A DNA stretch of 40,798 bases from Candidatus Solibacter sp. (GTDB taxonomy: Bacteria; Acidobacteriota; Terriglobia; Bryobacterales; Bryobacteraceae): assembly GCA_025361425.1 (NCBI GenBank), contig JANYAH010000087.1:1-40798 (forward strand), given 5' to 3'. A model generated the notes under the pieces. It had not been told where the DNA came from. It did not search any database and was given only the letters and a program-made list of their open reading frames with translations. Shown here in pieces: positions 12,236-19,540 of the stretch (the first letter of the stretch is position 1; each line of letters opens with the position of its first letter). The translations under genes were made by a program, and so were the position numbers.

Positions 12236-15200
12236 ATGATGAACCGCCTCTTCTTCCTCGTGCTCATCGCACTCACGCTGCAGGCTCAGGACTACACGCT
12301 CGGCGTCGGGGTTTACCCCGGCAATCCGAAGGAAAACTTCGCGCCGGCCGTGCGAATCGATTCCAGTACGTACCGTAACCTGGCGCTGCACCGCCCGGCC
12401 TACCATTCCTCCAGTTACGATTACAACCTGACCGCGCAGTTAGTCACCGATGGCATCAAAGAAACGGCGCTGCCTCGCTGGGTCTCCACCTCCACTAGCC
12501 AGCACGGCGTCTTCAAGAAGAACGAGCGCGAATGGATCCTGGACGGCAATTGGGTGACTGCGATAGATCTCTCGGGTCCCAAGGCCTGGGTGCAACTGGA
12601 GGTGGCCGGCGGCGCTTCGCCGCTCGAAATCGACCGCATCGAGGTCGACGGCGCCGTGAAGGCGCCCGGTGGCGAGCCCGAGATCTGGTCTTCAATTGTC
12701 TCCGGCTCCGACGACGGCGCCGCCTGGAGCGAACTCGGCCACAGCGATGGCATGTCGCGGCCCTCGGGCGACATCCGCCCCTCCATCAAGTTCAGCGCAC
12801 CCTCGCGCCACCGCTTCTACCGCATCGCGTTCTCCGACCCCCGCGCGAGTTCCTGGCATGTCACCGAGGTCTCACTGTTTCGTGGCAGCCAACCCGTCCA
12901 AATCGGTGGACCGCATCGGTTCTCCAGCGCCTGGAAAAGCGCTGGCGCCGGCGAGGAGTGGGTCTACGTCGACCTCGGCGCCTCGTGCACATTCGACCGC
13001 GTCATGCTCTACTGGATCCGCCGCGCCGCCCAAGGCTCGCTCCAGGTATCCGACGATTCCGTCCAGTGGAAACCTGTCGCCGCGCTGCCCGCCTCCGGCC
13101 TTACGGACGATTTGAAGCTCGCGCCGCCAGCCCAGGCGAGGTACGTGCGCATCCTCATGCAGAGGCCCGCCGCGCCCGAGGGCTACATTCTCAGCGAGCT
13201 GGAAGTTTTCGGCAAAGGCGGCCCGGTCCCGCGGGCCAAGCCCGGCCCGGAGCCTTCCGCCACTCGGCTTGAACTCTCCGGCGGCGGCTGGCGCGTCGAG
13301 CGCGATTCGCTGGTCAAAGCGGATGGCCTCGCGCTCGCCAGATCCGGCTTCGACGATTCCAAGTGGGTACTCGCCACCGTCCCCGGCACCGTCCTGGTCA
13401 GCTATTTGAACGCCGGCGCCATACCCGACCCCAACTTCTCCGACAACCAGATGATGGTCTCCGACTCGTTTTTCCAGGCCGACTTCTGGTATCGCAACGA
13501 GTTTTCCCTGCCGCCCTCGTTTTCCGGCAAGAACGTCTGGCTCAACTTCGACGGCATCAATTGGAAAGCCGAAGTCTTCCTGAACGGTCAGAGACTCGGC
13601 CGCATTGAGGGCGGCTTCATGCGCGCCCGTTTCGATGTGACTGCCAAGCTTCTCCCCGGCCGGAAAAACGTCCTCGCCGTGCGCATCCTCAAAACCGCCA
13701 CGCCCGGCAGCATTAAGGAAGCCACCATTCAGAGTACCGATAAGAATGGCGGCGCCCTTGGGGCCGATAATCCCACCTTTCACGCTTCCATCGGGTGGGA
13801 TTGGATCCCCAGCATCCGCGGCCGGGAAACCGGCATCTGGAACCGAGTCTACCTCGACGCCACCGGCCCCGTGACCGTGGAGAATGCCTTCGTCAGCTCC
13901 TCTCTGCCGCTGCCCGATACCACCCGCGCCAGCGTCACCATTGAGGCCACGCTGAACAATCACTCCGCCGCCCCCGTCTCCGGTACTCTGCGCGGCCACT
14001 TCGGCGCGGAGGCCTTCCATCTGCCAGTCACTCTCCCAGCGTCCCAATCGAAACAGGTCAAGCACACCTTTGAACTCAGCAACCCGAAGTTGTGGTGGCC
14101 CGCCGGATACGGGCAGCCCAATCTCTACGACGTCAGTCTGCAATTTGAGACCGGCCCGAACGCCGTTTCAGAGGCCAAGACGTTCCAGGCGGGCGTGCGG
14201 CAGTTCACCTACTCGGAGACAGGTGGCGCCCTACAGATGTGGATCAACGGCCGCCGCTTCATAGCCAAGGGCGGCAGTTGGGGCTTCGGCGAGAGCATGC
14301 TGCGCTACCGCGCCCGCGAATACGACGCAGCCGTGCGCTATCACGCGGAAATGAATTTCAACATGATCCGTAACTGGGTGGGCCAGATCGGCGAGGACGA
14401 GTTCTACGAGGCCTGCGACCGTCACGGTGTCGTTGTGTGGCAAGATTTCTGGTTGGCGAATCCCTGGGATGGCCCCGACCCCAACGACAATGGCATGTTC
14501 CTGCGGAACGTCAAGGATTACGTGCTGCGCATCCGCAGCCACCCCTCCATCGGCCTGTATGTGGGCCGCAATGAGGGGTATCCGCCCAAGTTTATCGACG
14601 ATGGCATCCGCGCAACGCTCGCCGATTTCCATCCCGGCATACACTACATCCCCAGTTCGGCCGACGACGTGGTCAGCGGCCACGGCCCCTACGAGGCCCA
14701 GTCCCCCAAGTACTATTTCTCGCAGCGCGCCACCCCGCAATTCCATAGCGAGATGGGCATGCCCAATATCGTCACCCTGGACAGTTTGCGCCTCATGATG
14801 CCGGAATCCGCCATGTGGCCGCAGGGCTCCATGTGGGGGATGCACGAATTCACCAACGCGGGCGCGCAAAACGGCGGCAACTTCCGCGCGCGCATTGAAA
14901 AGAGCTACGGCCCAGCCAACAATGTGGCCGACTGGCTCTGGCTCGCCCAGTTTGAGAACTACCAAGGCCACCGCGCCATGTTCGAGGCGCAGAGTAAGAA
15001 CCGCATGGGCCTGCTCATGTGGATGAGCCATTCCTGCTGGCCGTCCTTCGTCTGGCAGACCTACGATTACTTTTACGAGCCCACGGCCGGCTACTTCGGC
15101 GCCAAGAAAGCGACCGAGCCCCTGCACATCCAGTGGAACCCCGCCAGCGATAACATCGAAGTGGTTAATTACAGCGCCGGCGCGGCGCCGGGCCTCACCG

Positions 15201-15718
15201 CCCGCGTCCAGCTGCTCAATTCCGATGGTACGGTGAAATGGGAGAAATCCGCCACGCTCGATAGCGCGGAAGACACTACTGTGGCGCCCTTCAAAATCGA
15301 GTACCCCGCTGGCCTCACGCCCGTCCATTTCATCCGTCTGGAACTTCGCCAGGGTGAGAAACTGGTCTCCGACAACTTCTACTGGCGCGGTGTGGAGGAA
15401 GAAAACTACCGCGCCTTGCGCGCGCTCCCCAAGGCTATCATCGACGTTTCCACCACCGCCGAGCGCCGCGGCGATCGCTGGTTCCTGAGCACCACCCTCG
15501 CCAACGCATCCAAGGATCCCGCGCTCATGGTGCGCCTCAAAGCCGTGCGCGAGAAGACCGGAGACCGCATCCTGCCCGCCATCTATAGCGACGGCTACGT
15601 CCCCCTGATGCCCGGCGAGCGGCGCAGCATCACCACCGAACTGCGCGACGCCGACACCCGGGGCGAGAAACCCCGCATCTTAGTCGAAGGCTTCAACGTC
15701 TCCTACACCGAAAAATGA
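12236..15718 (+). CDS. Secreted GH2 family glycosidase with discoidin-like domains
   Basis: A 1160-residue exported enzyme. The signal is MMNRLFFLVLIALTLQAQ. Two F5/8-type C (discoidin) carbohydrate-binding domains follow: about 45-215 (NLALHRPAYHSSSY start) and about 225-335 (EEWVYVDLGASCTFDRV, YVRILM). A GH2 sandwich domain at about 350-560 includes VWLNFDGINWKAEVFLNGQRLG. An Ig-like domain, then a TIM barrel at about 680-900, carry the putative acid/base E780 in GRNEGYP and nucleophile E839 in FHSEMGMP. GH2 includes beta-mannosidases, beta-galactosidases and exo-glucosaminidases; HSEMGMP and the barrel resemble the mannosidase/glucosaminidase side, so the substrate is unsettled. ATG at 12239, 5 nt after AGGA, may be the true start. 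The neighbouring GH26 remnant suggests a former mannan-degrading pair. Confidence 0.88.
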   Translation: MMNRLFFLVLIALTLQAQDYTLGVGVYPGNPKENFAPAVRIDSSTYRNLALHRPAYHSSSYDYNLTAQLVTDGIKETALPRWVSTSTSQHGVFKKNEREWILDGNWVTAIDLSGPKAWVQLEVAGGASPLEIDRIEVDGAVKAPGGEPEIWSSIVSGSDDGAAWSELGHSDGMSRPSGDIRPSIKFSAPSRHRFYRIAFSDPRASSWHVTEVSLFRGSQPVQIGGPHRFSSAWKSAGAGEEWVYVDLGASCTFDRVMLYWIRRAAQGSLQVSDDSVQWKPVAALPASGLTDDLKLAPPAQARYVRILMQRPAAPEGYILSELEVFGKGGPVPRAKPGPEPSATRLELSGGGWRVERDSLVKADGLALARSGFDDSKWVLATVPGTVLVSYLNAGAIPDPNFSDNQMMVSDSFFQADFWYRNEFSLPPSFSGKNVWLNFDGINWKAEVFLNGQRLGRIEGGFMRARFDVTAKLLPGRKNVLAVRILKTATPGSIKEATIQSTDKNGGALGADNPTFHASIGWDWIPSIRGRETGIWNRVYLDATGPVTVENAFVSSSLPLPDTTRASVTIEATLNNHSAAPVSGTLRGHFGAEAFHLPVTLPASQSKQVKHTFELSNPKLWWPAGYGQPNLYDVSLQFETGPNAVSEAKTFQAGVRQFTYSETGGALQMWINGRRFIAKGGSWGFGESMLRYRAREYDAAVRYHAEMNFNMIRNWVGQIGEDEFYEACDRHGVVVWQDFWLANPWDGPDPNDNGMFLRNVKDYVLRIRSHPSIGLYVGRNEGYPPKFIDDGIRATLADFHPGIHYIPSSADDVVSGHGPYEAQSPKYYFSQRATPQFHSEMGMPNIVTLDSLRLMMPESAMWPQGSMWGMHEFTNAGAQNGGNFRARIEKSYGPANNVADWLWLAQFENYQGHRAMFEAQSKNRMGLLMWMSHSCWPSFVWQTYDYFYEPTAGYFGAKKATEPLHIQWNPASDNIEVVNYSAGAAPGLTARVQLLNSDGTVKWEKSATLDSAEDTTVAPFKIEYPAGLTPVHFIRLELRQGEKLVSDNFYWRGVEEENYRALRALPKAIIDVSTTAERRGDRWFLSTTLANASKDPALMVRLKAVREKTGDRILPAIYSDGYVPLMPGERRSITTELRDADTRGEKPRILVEGFNVSYTEK

Positions 15719-15822
15719 GACTGCAAACGCCCGACGAAGAGGCAGCCTGGGCACATTTGTAAGAGGGGCGTCGTAGTCCTGCGCTATCTCGATCTAACTT
15801 GCCGCTGTGTCTGCTGTCGATG

Positions 15823-16857
15823 TTACTCGCCGGCTGTGCCCAGCGGCGCCAATTGATAGATCCGCGCCTCGTTCGCTCCCAGCGCAGCGATCTGCGCGTT
15901 GGGCCGCGGCGTGGCATCATCCGCCGTATGGCAATTCTCGATCCACGCGCCGCAATCCATCAGCGCGAAGAATTCGCCCCCCGTATCGTGCACCGCGATC
16001 CGCGCCTGGTGGGTGTGCCCGATCACCGTCATCTTCAGCGCGCTGCCGAACTGGCGATTGGCCTCGGCGCATTTCTGCCGCGCCGCGTCCAGGTAGAGCA
16101 GCATCTCCTTGGGCGCCGCGCCTTCCACCTGCACGTTCCAGTTCGGCCCGTCATCGCCGGCGGCGCGCCAGTTCCCGGTGGGCGCCGGAGCCTGGTTGTG
16201 AATGAAGTCGCGAAAATCTCTTCCCGCCCGCCGCTTGCGGTTCAGCGGGCGCAGTTTCTCCAGATCCGCCGTTCCCGCCGGGTGCGAAGCCGTGAACTGG
16301 AACAGCACCAGATTCTTCAGCTCATTGGGTAGCTTCTCCACCCAGTCGAAGACATCGCCGTGCAGCAGCAGGACGGAAGGCGCCAGCACAAAAGACCGCT
16401 GCCACGCGTCGAAGTTGGGAAACCGGTAGAGATCGTAATCGTGATTGCCCAGCAGGAACTGCGCGTTGAGATCCGGATCGCGCAGCGCCACCAACAGACT
16501 CGCCCGATCGTTCTGGATCGCCGATGCCGCGTTGGCGTTCGGGTCCAGCCCGTCCACCTGCCGCCACAGATCGAACAGGTCGCCGATCTGATACACCACC
16601 ACTTCGCCCGCCGGGGCGGAAGCGAGTTTCAAGGCGCGCAGCGATTTCACCACGGTTTCGAGCAGCGCCGGATGGTTCGTGCCGTACCGGTATCCGCCGT
16701 CGACCCGGCGCGCGGCGGTGATCAGGTGGATGTCCGGAATAAATACGTGCAGTTCGTTAGCCTGCGGGAAGTTCAGCCGGTCGTCCCGGAGACGCGCCAC
16801 CAGCTGCACGCTGGCGATGGCCTGTAGACGCCCGAGAAGATCCGAATGCAGGCTCAT
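15823..16857 (-). CDS. Calcineurin-like metallophosphoesterase
   Basis: A 344-residue cytosolic enzyme with the full metal-binding set of the calcineurin-like superfamily: PDIH (D42, H44), GDLFD (D93), GNHD (N138-H139-D140), LLLHGD and GHTH near the C-terminus. These residues hold two metals that hydrolyse phosphomono- or diesters. A 100-residue insertion between LLLHGD and GHTH is rich in charged residues. The substrate is unknown; UDP-diacylglucosamine pyrophosphatases and related phosphodiesterases share the fold but not this length. The start ATG lies in an ATGA overlap with the stop of the upstream lipoprotein gene, so the two form an operon. Confidence 0.88.
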   Translation of the reverse strand: MSLHSDLLGRLQAIASVQLVARLRDDRLNFPQANELHVFIPDIHLITAARRVDGGYRYGTNHPALLETVVKSLRALKLASAPAGEVVVYQIGDLFDLWRQVDGLDPNANAASAIQNDRASLLVALRDPDLNAQFLLGNHDYDLYRFPNFDAWQRSFVLAPSVLLLHGDVFDWVEKLPNELKNLVLFQFTASHPAGTADLEKLRPLNRKRRAGRDFRDFIHNQAPAPTGNWRAAGDDGPNWNVQVEGAAPKEMLLYLDAARQKCAEANRQFGSALKMTVIGHTHQARIAVHDTGGEFFALMDCGAWIENCHTADDATPRPNAQIAALGANEARIYQLAPLGTAGE

Positions 16858-17357
16858 GGCTGCGACCGCCGCACGCTGCGCACCACCACAAGCTGCGTCA
16901 GCAGGTTACCCGACTGGCGGAAGATCCAGCAGTACTCGTCATCGCAGACCGCGAGCGGGTCCGGCACCTCCGGCCCGCGGTTGCGCGCATCAATCACCTG
17001 GGTCACCGCGATCCGCTTGCGGAAGATAGGCGCCGCCTGGCAAAGCGCCGCGGCGATGGCGCAAAAGTCCGAGGTCGCCAGGTTGGCGCGGATCTTCAGG
17101 TTGCCCGGGGCCGCCAGGGCGTCGAGGATTTGCTGGTGGCCCGCCGCCTGCGGGTCGGGTGCCGGGTTGCGGCCGAAGCGGTTGCCCCCATGCTCCAGGA
17201 AGCTCGCCACTTCCCCGCGCGCCGCCTGGTCCAAGGGCAGCGCCACCGCCGTGTCGTGGCTGCGAAACTGCTGTTCGCGCATAGCGACCACCGCCGGGTA
17301 GCGGACCGCGCAACCGGTGGCGAACCCCAGCGCCAGCACAAGCAACCGGTATCTCAT
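16854..17357 (-). CDS. Predicted lipoprotein of unknown function
   Basis: A 167-residue protein with a lipoprotein signal: MRYRLLVLALGFATGC, the Cys at 16 being the acylated residue. The mature part contains a region with QQFRSHDTAVALP, a helical middle, and a C-terminal beta segment (DDEYCWIFRQSGNLLTQLVV). Cysteines near residues 99, 105, 139 and 143 could form disulfides. No family is recognised. It overlaps the metallophosphoesterase by 4 nt (ATGA), so they are co-translated, which is odd because one product is exported and the other is not. Confidence 0.7.
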   Translation of the reverse strand: MRYRLLVLALGFATGCAVRYPAVVAMREQQFRSHDTAVALPLDQAARGEVASFLEHGGNRFGRNPAPDPQAAGHQQILDALAAPGNLKIRANLATSDFCAIAAALCQAAPIFRKRIAVTQVIDARNRGPEVPDPLAVCDDEYCWIFRQSGNLLTQLVVVRSVRRSQP

Positions 17358-17473
17358 TAGAAGGAGTTTACAGGAAAGGCCGCGCCGTGCATAGATTAAA
17401 AATCTGGAATAAAAATCTTGCTTCCCCGTAAGCTCCGGTGATAGGCTGAAGACGACGTGGAATGATTTAGGGT

Positions 17474-17515
17474 ATGTTGAGCCCTGCTAATTGCAACCAC
17501 GAAAAAAAGTGCTAA
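17474..17515 (+). CDS. Possible 13-residue leader peptide of an attenuator
   Basis: ATG at 17474 opens a 13-codon frame, MLSPANCNHEKKC, ending in TAA at 17513-17515. Two codons are Cys, one just before the stop, preceded by Lys-Lys. The stop overlaps the segment AAAGGCG (17514-17520) that can pair with the left arm of the terminator at 17547. This is the geometry of leader-peptide attenuation. Its ribosome binding site is poor (AGGG only 1 nt from the ATG), so translation is doubtful. Confidence 0.3.
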   Translation: MLSPANCNHEKKC

Positions 17516-17546
17516 AGGCGAGTCGGTCTGTTCGAAAAACATTTCG

Positions 17547-17578
17547 ACCCTGGCGCCTTTTTGGCCCCAGGGTTTTTT
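17547..17578 (+). terminator. Strong intrinsic terminator in the leader of the 17622 gene
   Basis: ACCCTGGCGCC (17547-17557) and GGCCCCAGGGT (17563-17573) pair over 11 positions with one mismatch, loop TTTTT, followed by a run of T. It lies 44 nt before the ATG of the next gene on the same strand, so it sits inside that gene's leader. AAAGGCG at 17514-17520 is complementary to CGCCTTT at 17554-17560 and could act as antiterminator. A further hairpin, TCGAAA/TTTCGA (17532-17547), lies between them. Confidence 0.75.
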
Positions 17579-17621
17579 GTTTGGGCGGGCAGGCCCCCAT
17601 CGCCGGATGCTGGAGGATTCG

Positions 17622-18035
17622 ATGAGCGTCTGGCCCAAAACACCGCCAGTTACTCCTTCGCTTTCGACTGCTGAAGGAGCCTTGGTTTCCGTCTCGATTC
17701 ATGTGGAGCCGCACTGCCTGGAATCGCTGCTCGAGGCGCTGGCCCTGGTAAGTTTCCCGATTAACCCGCAGATCTATCACGACGCGGCCCTGGTTTACCG
17801 CTACGCCGATGGGCGCGACGAAACCGAGTCCGTCACCCTGGTGGAATTCCCCGCCTACGAAGGCCGCCTGGATGAAGTGCGCCGCGCCGTGCAGGCTTGC
17901 GGCTTCCAGGCGGACTGTATCCACGCCATCGGCATGCTGGATGAGATCCAGTGTGACTTGCAACCGGAGCGGGCCCCCGAGGGCGCGGCATACGTCTCGC
18001 GCCATCGCGTGAAACGGCGCCCGGCTGTGGTCTAG
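17622..18035 (+). CDS. Conserved-looking orphan protein behind an attenuator
   Basis: A 137-residue soluble protein (ATG at 17622, TGGAGGA ending 4 nt upstream, a strong site). After a Ser/Pro-rich start it has two alpha-beta units: VSVSIHVEPHCLESLLEALA, and ESVTLVEFPAYEGRLDEVRR with ACGFQADCIHAIGMLDEIQ. The beta-alpha-beta pattern suggests a ferredoxin/ACT-like fold, but this is a guess from strand-helix spacing. Four cysteines are present. No family is recognised. The unusual feature is upstream: an intrinsic terminator with a possible antiterminator in its leader, implying expression controlled by premature termination. Confidence 0.7.
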   Translation: MSVWPKTPPVTPSLSTAEGALVSVSIHVEPHCLESLLEALALVSFPINPQIYHDAALVYRYADGRDETESVTLVEFPAYEGRLDEVRRAVQACGFQADCIHAIGMLDEIQCDLQPERAPEGAAYVSRHRVKRRPAVV

Positions 18036-18271
18036 CTAACGTGCGCGCAGCGCGCCGCACCAACTCGCGGGTAGTGCGCCGCGGCAAGTGGAAACTCTTC
18101 CAGCACCACTCCGCGCGGGCCGTGTCGAAACAGACGATGTTTACCTTGTGCAATGGTACTTTTTACCAGTCAAGCGTGTTTTGGCCGTTACGGCCGCAAT
18201 AATTTGCGCCATAATACGGACACAGCGTTACCGTGTGATAGGAACGCTGTCGATGCAGGTGTTGCCCAGCG

Positions 18272-19540
18272 ATGGCGATGTTACCCAAATGGATCTTTTG
18301 TAACGGACGGAGGAGGCAGGCGGAAACCTTCGCTTGTGCGTGGGTGGTAACATGCACTTGTCTTTCCGCCCAGGTTCTGATGCCAGCCGCCGGGCCCGGT
18401 GGCGCGGTGAGACTCTTCACCTCCGACGCGGCGATCCTCGAAGCCAGGGAAGTTCGTAAAGACGTTCCTTGCACCGTCACACCGGTCAAACCGGTACTCG
18501 GGTTCGACCTGAAGTTTCACGCCGGTTACGATGTCAGCATCCCGCTAAAGGACCTCGCCGGCAGCGATAACCTGCTGACCATGGTTTTCCGCGTGGCGCC
18601 CGATCAGAAGCCTGACGATGCGGTCTATTTCTCGCATCACTTTAATGTGCCGACGATCGAATCCGACGCCGGCGGCAGCGCCGTGCTGTCTGGAACCTTC
18701 GATGTGGGCGAGGGCAAATACCATGTCGATTGGTTGATGCGCGACCGTAGCGAGCGTGTCTGCTCCTTCAATTGGGAGAGCGAAGCGGTGCTGCCCACGA
18801 AGGATAAGCAGATCGCGCTCGACATCCCGGCCAGCGCCGTGCAACCCGCCGAAACCGAACCCTTCAAGCAGGAGCCCGCGGTAGCACGGGAAACGCAGGC
18901 GGACCAGCTCAACATCAAGGTGATGGTCAACTTCGCGCCGCAGGACTCGCTTTCGGCCACGCTCCAGCCCATCGATACCCACGCCCTGATCTCCATCCTG
19001 CGCAACATGGCGCGGGATCCGCGGATTACGAAGTTCAGCATCGTCGCCTTCAACATGCAGGAGCAGCGGGTGATTTACCGCCAGGAATCGGCCGCGCAGA
19101 TCGATTTCCCAGCCCTCGGCGAGGCGCTGCACTCGCTCAACCTCGGCACGGTGGATCTCAAACGGCTGGCGCAGAAGCACGGCGATGCCGAATTCCTGAC
19201 CAGTTTCATCACGCAGGAGATCAAAGACGGCAAGGAGCAGCCCGACGCCGTAATCATCGCCGGTCCGAAAGTTACCGTGGAAGGCGGTCTGCCGCAGGAA
19301 TCCTTCAGGGAGGTCGGCGATCTGAAGTTTCCGGTGTTCTACATGAACTACAACCTGAACCCGCAGGTCAATCCGTGGCGCGATGCGATCGGATCCGCGG
19401 TGAAAACGCTGAAGGGCGCCGAGTTCACCATCAGCCGACCGCGCGACCTCTTTTTTGCGTGGACGGAGATCATCGGCCGTATAGTAAAATTAAAGTTCGG
19501 AAAGACGGCAACCGCAAGCACTGGTGCGCCCGTCAGATAA
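18272..19540 (+). CDS. Secreted protein of unknown function, degenerate VWA-like fold
   Basis: A 422-residue protein. A hydrophobic stretch (FACAWVVTCTCLSAQV) near residues 20-35 looks like a signal peptide, so the true start may be internal; ATG at 18272 or 18278 are the available starts and neither has a good ribosome binding site. The first half is beta-rich (FDLKFHAGYDVSIPLKDLAG) and mentions no known motif. The second half (LNIKVMVNFAP, then RITKFSIVAFN, PDAVIIAGPKV, FPVFYMNYN) alternates strands and helices like a VWA fold but lacks the DxSxS metal site. It resembles other secreted acidobacterial proteins only in general. It is followed after 3 nt by the methyltransferase gene, so they are probably one operon. 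Confidence 0.65.
   Translation: MAMLPKWIFCNGRRRQAETFACAWVVTCTCLSAQVLMPAAGPGGAVRLFTSDAAILEAREVRKDVPCTVTPVKPVLGFDLKFHAGYDVSIPLKDLAGSDNLLTMVFRVAPDQKPDDAVYFSHHFNVPTIESDAGGSAVLSGTFDVGEGKYHVDWLMRDRSERVCSFNWESEAVLPTKDKQIALDIPASAVQPAETEPFKQEPAVARETQADQLNIKVMVNFAPQDSLSATLQPIDTHALISILRNMARDPRITKFSIVAFNMQEQRVIYRQESAAQIDFPALGEALHSLNLGTVDLKRLAQKHGDAEFLTSFITQEIKDGKEQPDAVIIAGPKVTVEGGLPQESFREVGDLKFPVFYMNYNLNPQVNPWRDAIGSAVKTLKGAEFTISRPRDLFFAWTEIIGRIVKLKFGKTATASTGAPVR

Follow-up and report, generated by a model that had tools for sequence, protein, structure and literature searches.

A long-loop SAM-II riboswitch, a predicted SAM sensor, precedes an orphan gene with a putative PII-like product in Bryobacteraceae

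SAM-II riboswitches normally precede methionine or S-adenosylmethionine (SAM) genes, a placement that is usual and not obligatory. Members of the long-loop family (RF01726) have a helix P1, an H-type pseudoknot helix P2, and the sequence blocks GATTT, ATTGCAACC, and TGCTAAAG. The class, its long-loop form, and its terminator-bearing and translational forms are already known (PMC1273637, PMC2258182, PMC2864571, PMC9373788, and PMC10907184). In the described arrangement, a promoter lies directly before P1 and a terminator lies 3' of the aptamer (PMC1273637), and SAM-II riboswitches have been described as OFF switches that act with terminators (PMC1273637, PMC9373788). In S. meliloti, a SAM-II riboswitch acts through a terminator at metZ and translationally at metA, both methionine synthesis genes (PMC9373788). 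Long loops are assigned to Bacteroidetes and marine sources in Table 1 of PMC2864571.

The leader described here lies in a 40,798-nucleotide contig of Candidatus Solibacter sp. (Bryobacteraceae; assembly GCA_025361425.1, contig JANYAH010000087.1), hereafter the window. A first-pass annotation had read it as an attenuator or a riboswitch that matched no known class. It is very probably a SAM-II riboswitch, predicted from its covariance-model match to sense SAM: a permissive Rfam scan of positions 17340–17640 returned RF01726 at 17451–17525 (43.6 bits, E 2.5e-7), and the eight further matches all had E values of at least 0.85. The riboswitch alternative is thus borne out, and the class turns out to be a known one. 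With default settings, Rfam gave no match anywhere in the window, because the score falls 0.4 bits under the gathering cutoff of 44 bits. This low score is probably due to a long insertion in L1, which spans 20 positions as compared to 4 in the RF01726 alignment. The leader shares P1, P2, the three sequence blocks, the promoter placement, and the 3' terminator with described long-loop SAM-II riboswitches, but differs from them in taxon, in its sub-cutoff score, in a target that is not a recognized methionine or SAM gene, and in an additional helix, termed the latch, that spans the terminator. Taken as a whole, positions 17451–17604 very probably constitute a long-loop SAM-II riboswitch with a terminator platform, which would repress the 137-amino acid gene when SAM is plentiful.

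Features of the leader and the orphan gene in the window (positions are those of the window).
Feature	Position	Strand	Remark	Evidence
Promoter-like -35 TTGCTT	17418–17423	+		read from sequence
Extended -10 TGATAGGCT	17439–17447	+	just 5' of aptamer	sequence and family motif count
SAM-II riboswitch aptamer, long-loop form (RF01726), predicted	17451–17525	+		cmscan and whole-genome searches
P1 5' strand CGTGG	17456–17460	+	partner CCACG, 17497–17501	aptamer match, fold, RNAalifold
Extra hairpin in L1	17469–17485	+	arms 17469–17473 and 17481–17485	fold; compensatory changes (RNAalifold)
13-codon frame MLSPANCNHEKKC	17474–17515	+	chance frame within aptamer	ATG survey of 111 leaders
Putative P2 pseudoknot 5' strand GCTAATTGC	17486–17494	+		SAM-II architecture; pair table over 110 of 111 leaders
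Putative P2 pseudoknot 3' strand GCTAAAGGC	17511–17519	+	overlaps proposed antiterminator	SAM-II architecture; pair table over 110 of 111 leaders
Proposed antiterminator strand AAAGGCG	17514–17520	+		complement of 17554–17560; folding; family complementarity counts
Latch helix 5' strand	17517–17534	+		minimum-energy fold; covariation
Intrinsic terminator	17547–17578	+	hairpin 17547–17573, T-run 17573–17578	inverted repeat, hairpin scan, RNAalifold
Latch helix 3' strand	17586–17604	+	adjoins Shine-Dalgarno on 5' side	fold; covariation
Shine-Dalgarno GGAGG	17612–17616	+		sequence
Orphan gene, 137 amino acids, predicted PII-like fold	17622–18035	+		homologues, alignments, models, fold matches

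Conservation was assessed in all 111 leaders linked to the orphan gene (see below), oriented to the same strand. In a MAFFT alignment of 51 leaders, picked out of 81 non-redundant ones, each of the P1 pairs (CGTGG with CCACG) is kept in 50 or 51 sequences; P1 is broken in one of the 51 and otherwise never varies, and it is so nearly invariant that it carries no covariation information. Both anchor motifs of the P2 core occur in 110 of the 111 leaders, L229 being skipped. The four inner P2 pairs are fixed by these motifs, and so are invariant by construction and silent on covariation. The flanking pairs are also well kept in these 110 leaders: pair 37–68 is C-G in 107 and U.G in three, and thus standard in all, pair 36–69 is standard in at least 102, and pair 38–67 is U.G in 104. 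The P2 register given here would be the one that places the U.U position and its flanking pairs as in the SAM-II crystal structure. ATTTA of L1 is invariant across the 51 aligned leaders, and TTGC and GCTA of P2 occur in 110 of 111; these three motifs presumably hold the positions that contact SAM in the solved structure, and SAM is the candidate ligand of the window's aptamer. The compensatory base changes on which the first-pass annotation had staked its reading are present: on the 51 leaders, RNAalifold identified 19 pairs, eight of which changed on both sides, located in the L1 hairpin and the terminator, and the latch covaries strongly as well. The region 17440–17620 is more stable than shuffled sequence (z -2.41; 1 of 200 shuffles equally good). 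In 90 of the 111 leaders, an extended -10-like motif (TGnTAnnnT) starts 17–20 nt ahead of the P1 GTGG, while shuffles predict 4.2, and its placement suggests that the RNA probably begins at or beside the aptamer, as for described SAM-II riboswitches (PMC1273637).

The SAM-II riboswitch and the orphan gene are tightly linked. Covariance-model searches (E ≤ 0.001) of 200 Bryobacteraceae genomes found SAM-II in 111 (112 matches), and the orphan protein occurs in 118 (120 matches). In 111 of the 112 cases, the SAM-II match shares the strand of the orphan gene and lies directly 5' of it, at a distance of -4 to 154 nt, where a methionine or SAM gene would be usual; the lone unlinked match, in G411, is 56 nt from a contig end. 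RF01726 scores of at least 44 bits are reached in just 17 of the 200 genomes (best, 48.8 bits), and in 4 of 61 relatives, including an unlinked match in G058. Nine orphan-protein matches were without SAM-II in the family search. Eight were examined, the second copy in G390 being left out: SAM-II is matched weakly in four (26.7–31.6 bits, E 0.006–0.096), one is a gene fragment that lacks its 5' end (G001, L261), and SAM-II was not detectable beside the gene in G453, G496, and G503 (L265, L267, and L268). G496 and G503 belong to the same genus and have kept the orphan gene, the regulation of which has possibly been lost there. Outside the family the protein was not encountered: in a phylum sample of 297 genomes with few family members it occurred in the window's genome only, and of 150 genomes sampled from the order, 70 had a match, all of them Bryobacteraceae. 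Of the other SAM riboswitch classes, SAM-I alone was searched for in whole genomes, and 3 of the 61 relatives carry it; its sole Bryobacteraceae carrier among these, G023 (L272), has neither SAM-II nor the orphan gene, which hints at replacement.

Downstream of the orphan gene, synteny over 34 loci is partial, with a 422-amino acid protein at 15, a SurA-like protein at 12, and a methyltransferase-like protein at 11 (names from the window's Pfam matches or by eye). The gene for the 422-amino acid protein starts about 500 to 1200 nt past the orphan start (in the 12 positions listed), and because of this spacing we treated the orphan gene as free-standing. In the window, the 422-amino acid protein (18272–19540) has no Pfam match. 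Farther upstream, positions 12236–15718 encode a 1160-amino acid protein of the glycoside hydrolase family 2 type, with exo-beta-D-glucosaminidase Ig-fold and F5/8 type C domains.

Other Acidobacteriota families (leaders L089–L100; genomes G089, G102, G127, G289, G313, and G345) have the same aptamer class, mostly with terminators as judged by eye. These six genomes differ, however, in having two SAM-II riboswitches each, with aptamers of 60–65 nt that lack the L1 hairpin, and in targets whose N-termini look MetH-like by eye, unlike the orphan gene. The tail AAAGAGCC of some of these leaders can pair, again by eye, with the right arm of the terminator and the T-run. The unlinked match in G058 (L024 / L064) is that genome's single SAM-II (48.6 bits) and precedes a 1049-amino acid frame that appears by eye to be secreted or outer-membrane-like and not a methionine gene.

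The expression platform of the window includes the terminator that the first-pass annotation had pointed out upstream of a gene with a ribosome-binding site, and both are evident in the sequence. The inverted repeat (17547–17557 and 17563–17573) is 11 nt long and 91% complementary, with a single C.C mismatch, and is followed by six T residues; a simple terminator scan did not list it. Across the family, 98 of the 111 leaders have room for a terminator, and a hairpin with a T-rich tail is found at -10 kcal/mol or better in 86 of these and at -12 kcal/mol or better in 85, as compared to 92 of 294 shuffles at -12 kcal/mol or better. This hairpin scan found no good terminator in the other 12 long leaders. 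In the remaining 13 of the 111, the start as chosen follows the aptamer at a short distance, and in 11 of these a start codon is 4–9 nt past AAAGG or AAAGGAG, as seen by eye. Start codons were set by a simple rule, and L244, L247, and L254, for example, probably use ATGs nearer the aptamer. Both platforms known from S. meliloti metZ and metA thus appear to occur in Bryobacteraceae, but serve one orphan gene family here instead of two methionine synthesis genes (PMC9373788).

The antiterminator proposed in the first-pass annotation, AAAGGCG, stands for the window but is less certain as a general family rule. Its seven nucleotides are perfectly complementary to CGCCTTT at 17554–17560, and as the aptamer's 3' end (GCTAAAGGC) is the pseudoknot strand, most of the antiterminator belongs to the aptamer core. 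When the window RNA was folded to the end of the left arm, AAAGGC was paired with GCCTTT (-14.8 kcal/mol, or -14.7 kcal/mol with all seven pairs forced). Once the right arm was included, the terminator was favored (-25.6 vs. -18.0, a difference of 7.6 kcal/mol), and antitermination would therefore have to be kinetic. Among the 86 terminator leaders, complementarity between tail and left arm runs to at least 6 pairs in 47, CCTTT occurs in 36 (16.2 expected), and the antiterminator is significant on its own (p ≤ 0.05) in 3. Nascent folds showed tail–arm pairing in 81 of 86, as compared to a mean of 77.5 and a maximum of 81 when arms were swapped between leaders; by the P2-strand measure, the value was 78 against a swapped mean of 71 and maximum of 77. 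Complementarity in the family is modestly enriched, and pairing in nascent folds hardly exceeds that of swapped arms. A partner-swap test revealed no difference (own -8.17, swapped -8.16), but with so little variation in the tail it carries little weight in either direction.

The latch covaries strongly. In the minimum-energy fold of the window, 17600–17604 pair with 17517–17521 and 17586–17595 with 17525–17534, enclosing the terminator. The part of the 5' strand compared across the family was GGCGAGTCGGTC (17517–17528). In 46 non-redundant leaders, this strand paired better with its own partner than with swapped ones (-17.7 vs. -15.1 kcal/mol, z -7.6, 0 of 2000 swaps), while controls with the coding start, upstream sequence, reversed strand, and spacer gave z values of -0.9 to 1.1, and the test against the whole terminator hairpin gave z -2.1 (41 of 2000 swaps). 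Matched base changes between the latch strands are visible in individual leaders. RNAalifold did not recover the latch on the MAFFT alignment of 51 leaders, probably because the 3' strand is not aligned in register; the register was taken from a duplex program, and the partner-swap test was used in place of RNAalifold. The latch can form only after read-through. The median distance from the end of its 3' strand to the start codon is 18 nt, and it includes P2 nucleotides 67–69 in 82 to 84 of 85 leaders. As it uses three nucleotides of P2, the latch probably stops the aptamer from folding again and keeps the ribosome site accessible.

These elements suggest an order of events. Transcription would start at or beside the aptamer. 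If SAM is absent, AAAGGCG would pair with the CGCCTTT left arm and delay the terminator, such that polymerase enters the gene; if SAM is bound, the AAAGGCG strand would be locked in P2 (GCTAATTGC with GCTAAAGGC), and the terminator would form and stop transcription before the gene. In read-through RNA, the aptamer tail starting with GGCGAGTCGGTC would then pair with the strand preceding the Shine-Dalgarno sequence to form the latch. For members with a start codon close behind the aptamer, the AAAGG(AG) Shine-Dalgarno sequence would instead be hidden inside P2.

The orphan protein had been called unrecognized, which holds for its sequence but not for its predicted fold. Twenty-two aligned members of its family match across a core of ~95 residues and share ten invariant residues (G19, L21, L33, E34, L37, L40, F45, P49, F76, and P77). 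Searches of Pfam and NCBIfam produced no significant match for the 22 members, with few weak matches scattered among them (best Pfam E 0.04; best NCBIfam E 0.0067, between one member and an unrelated epimerase), and no PII family appeared among the matches at E up to 1. The best PHROGs match (E 0.011) was to an entry of unknown function, and no significant match was obtained to sequences of solved structures in the PDB (best E 0.13). In AlphaFold models, both the window protein (pLDDT 86.8) and a 97-amino acid relative (pLDDT 84.4) have a predicted beta-alpha-beta-beta-alpha-beta topology, that of a ferredoxin-like subunit, as in the PII-like proteins CPII, GlnK, SbtB, PstA, and CutA. The best Foldseek E values were 8.7e-4 and 1.8e-3, respectively. 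Superposition by VIA on CPII (5ds7) gave Z 9.1 for the window protein (rmsd 4.2, 84 aligned, 11% identity) and Z 9.5 for the relative (rmsd 3.2, 75 aligned, 17% identity), where Z values of 7 to 8 are common for models without relatives, and the two models, being built from the same 22 sequences, are not fully independent. PII, PII-like, and CutA proteins make up most of the top rows from Foldseek and VIA; lower rows include NIF3-related proteins, aspartate kinase regulatory domains, an ATP phosphoribosyltransferase, and designed folds. The family differs from known PII-like proteins in its low identity to CPII and its lack of a Pfam match, and the beta hairpin located where a T-loop would be expected varies among members, from long to absent. 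A PII-like fold is the best reading of these models, not proof, and we take the most likely product to be a small PII-like regulatory protein that would be made at low SAM.

We considered other explanations for the leader. Leader-peptide attenuation, raised in the first-pass annotation, would have ribosomes stalling at the Cys codons of MLSPANCNHEKKC and thereby selecting the antiterminator or the terminator. The frame is real, running from ATG at 17474 to TAA at 17513–17515 over 13 codons with two TGC (Cys), and its stop overlaps the antiterminator as had been stated. However, it lies entirely within the SAM-II match, its Cys codons are part of the conserved aptamer core (TTGCAACC, GTGCTAA) and recur in leaders that lack such a frame, just 11 of the 111 leaders have an in-frame ATG leading to the GCTAA stop (four of them with a 13-codon frame), and the 14 nt 5' of the window's ATG (GAATGATTTAGGGT) contain no clear Shine-Dalgarno sequence. 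We rejected this mechanism on these grounds as extremely improbable. An aptamer derived from SAM-II with a changed ligand, such as S-adenosylhomocysteine or another adenosyl compound, would fit a target that is not a known methionine or SAM gene and the sub-cutoff scores of most family copies, but the low scores are probably explained by the long L1 insertion, and the conservation of ATTTA, TTGC, and GCTA noted above makes such a change highly unlikely.

The direction of the switch could in principle be reversed, with SAM favoring read-through and the product removing or sequestering SAM. A precedent exists in Svi3-3, a phage SAM lyase that forms a PII/CutA-like trimer, and SAM chemistry on a PII-like fold is therefore possible (PMC7877911). 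The arrangement of the leader argues against an ON switch, which we consider quite improbable: the window's P2 strand overlaps the antiterminator, such that SAM should favor termination, and in leaders with a close start AAAGG(AG) lies in P2, where SAM should hide it. The orphan protein also has no significant match to the sequence of a solved structure. The same predicted switch direction speaks against a SAM lyase as the product; Svi3-3 is absent among the fold-search rows listed, which proves nothing. We also give little credence to a constitutive terminator for a transcript from upstream or for an independent small RNA, with the gene having its own promoter. The terminated leader would itself be a small RNA, comparable to RZ of S. 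meliloti metZ (PMC9373788), and the terminator wins at equilibrium. Yet the neighboring upstream frame (16854–17357, minus strand) is divergent, a simple scan of the plus strand from 15500 to 19500 detected no sigma-70-like promoter (the same scan missed the extended -10), the linkage of SAM-II to the gene is family-wide, and the latch extends across the terminator to the Shine-Dalgarno sequence. A SAM-II OFF switch with a terminator platform remains the preferred reading.

Neither a SAM-II/PII-like regulon nor the latch was found in the full-text literature searches on SAM riboswitches, Acidobacteria, and PII. The riboswitch class is known, and its one-gene regulon, with a predicted PII-like product, and the latch seem undescribed within that literature. 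More tentatively, and as a possibility that we hold to be on the unlikely side, the Bryobacteraceae SAM-II may serve, in place of methionine enzymes, a dedicated PII-like signaling protein of low SAM, which would relay the SAM signal at the protein level to enzymes or transporters, with the latch as a new commitment element that captures the P2 strand after read-through. For the riboswitch class, the curated cutoff hides most of this clade (17 of 200 genomes above it, as compared to 111 of 200 at E ≤ 0.001), one class is joined to two expression platforms at the same gene, and the proposed latch would add to how SAM-II platforms work. For the Bryobacteraceae, an orphan protein family gains its first functional handle in the form of predicted SAM control, and should this PII-like protein prove to pass on SAM status, a second layer of SAM signaling would exist on top of the riboswitch.
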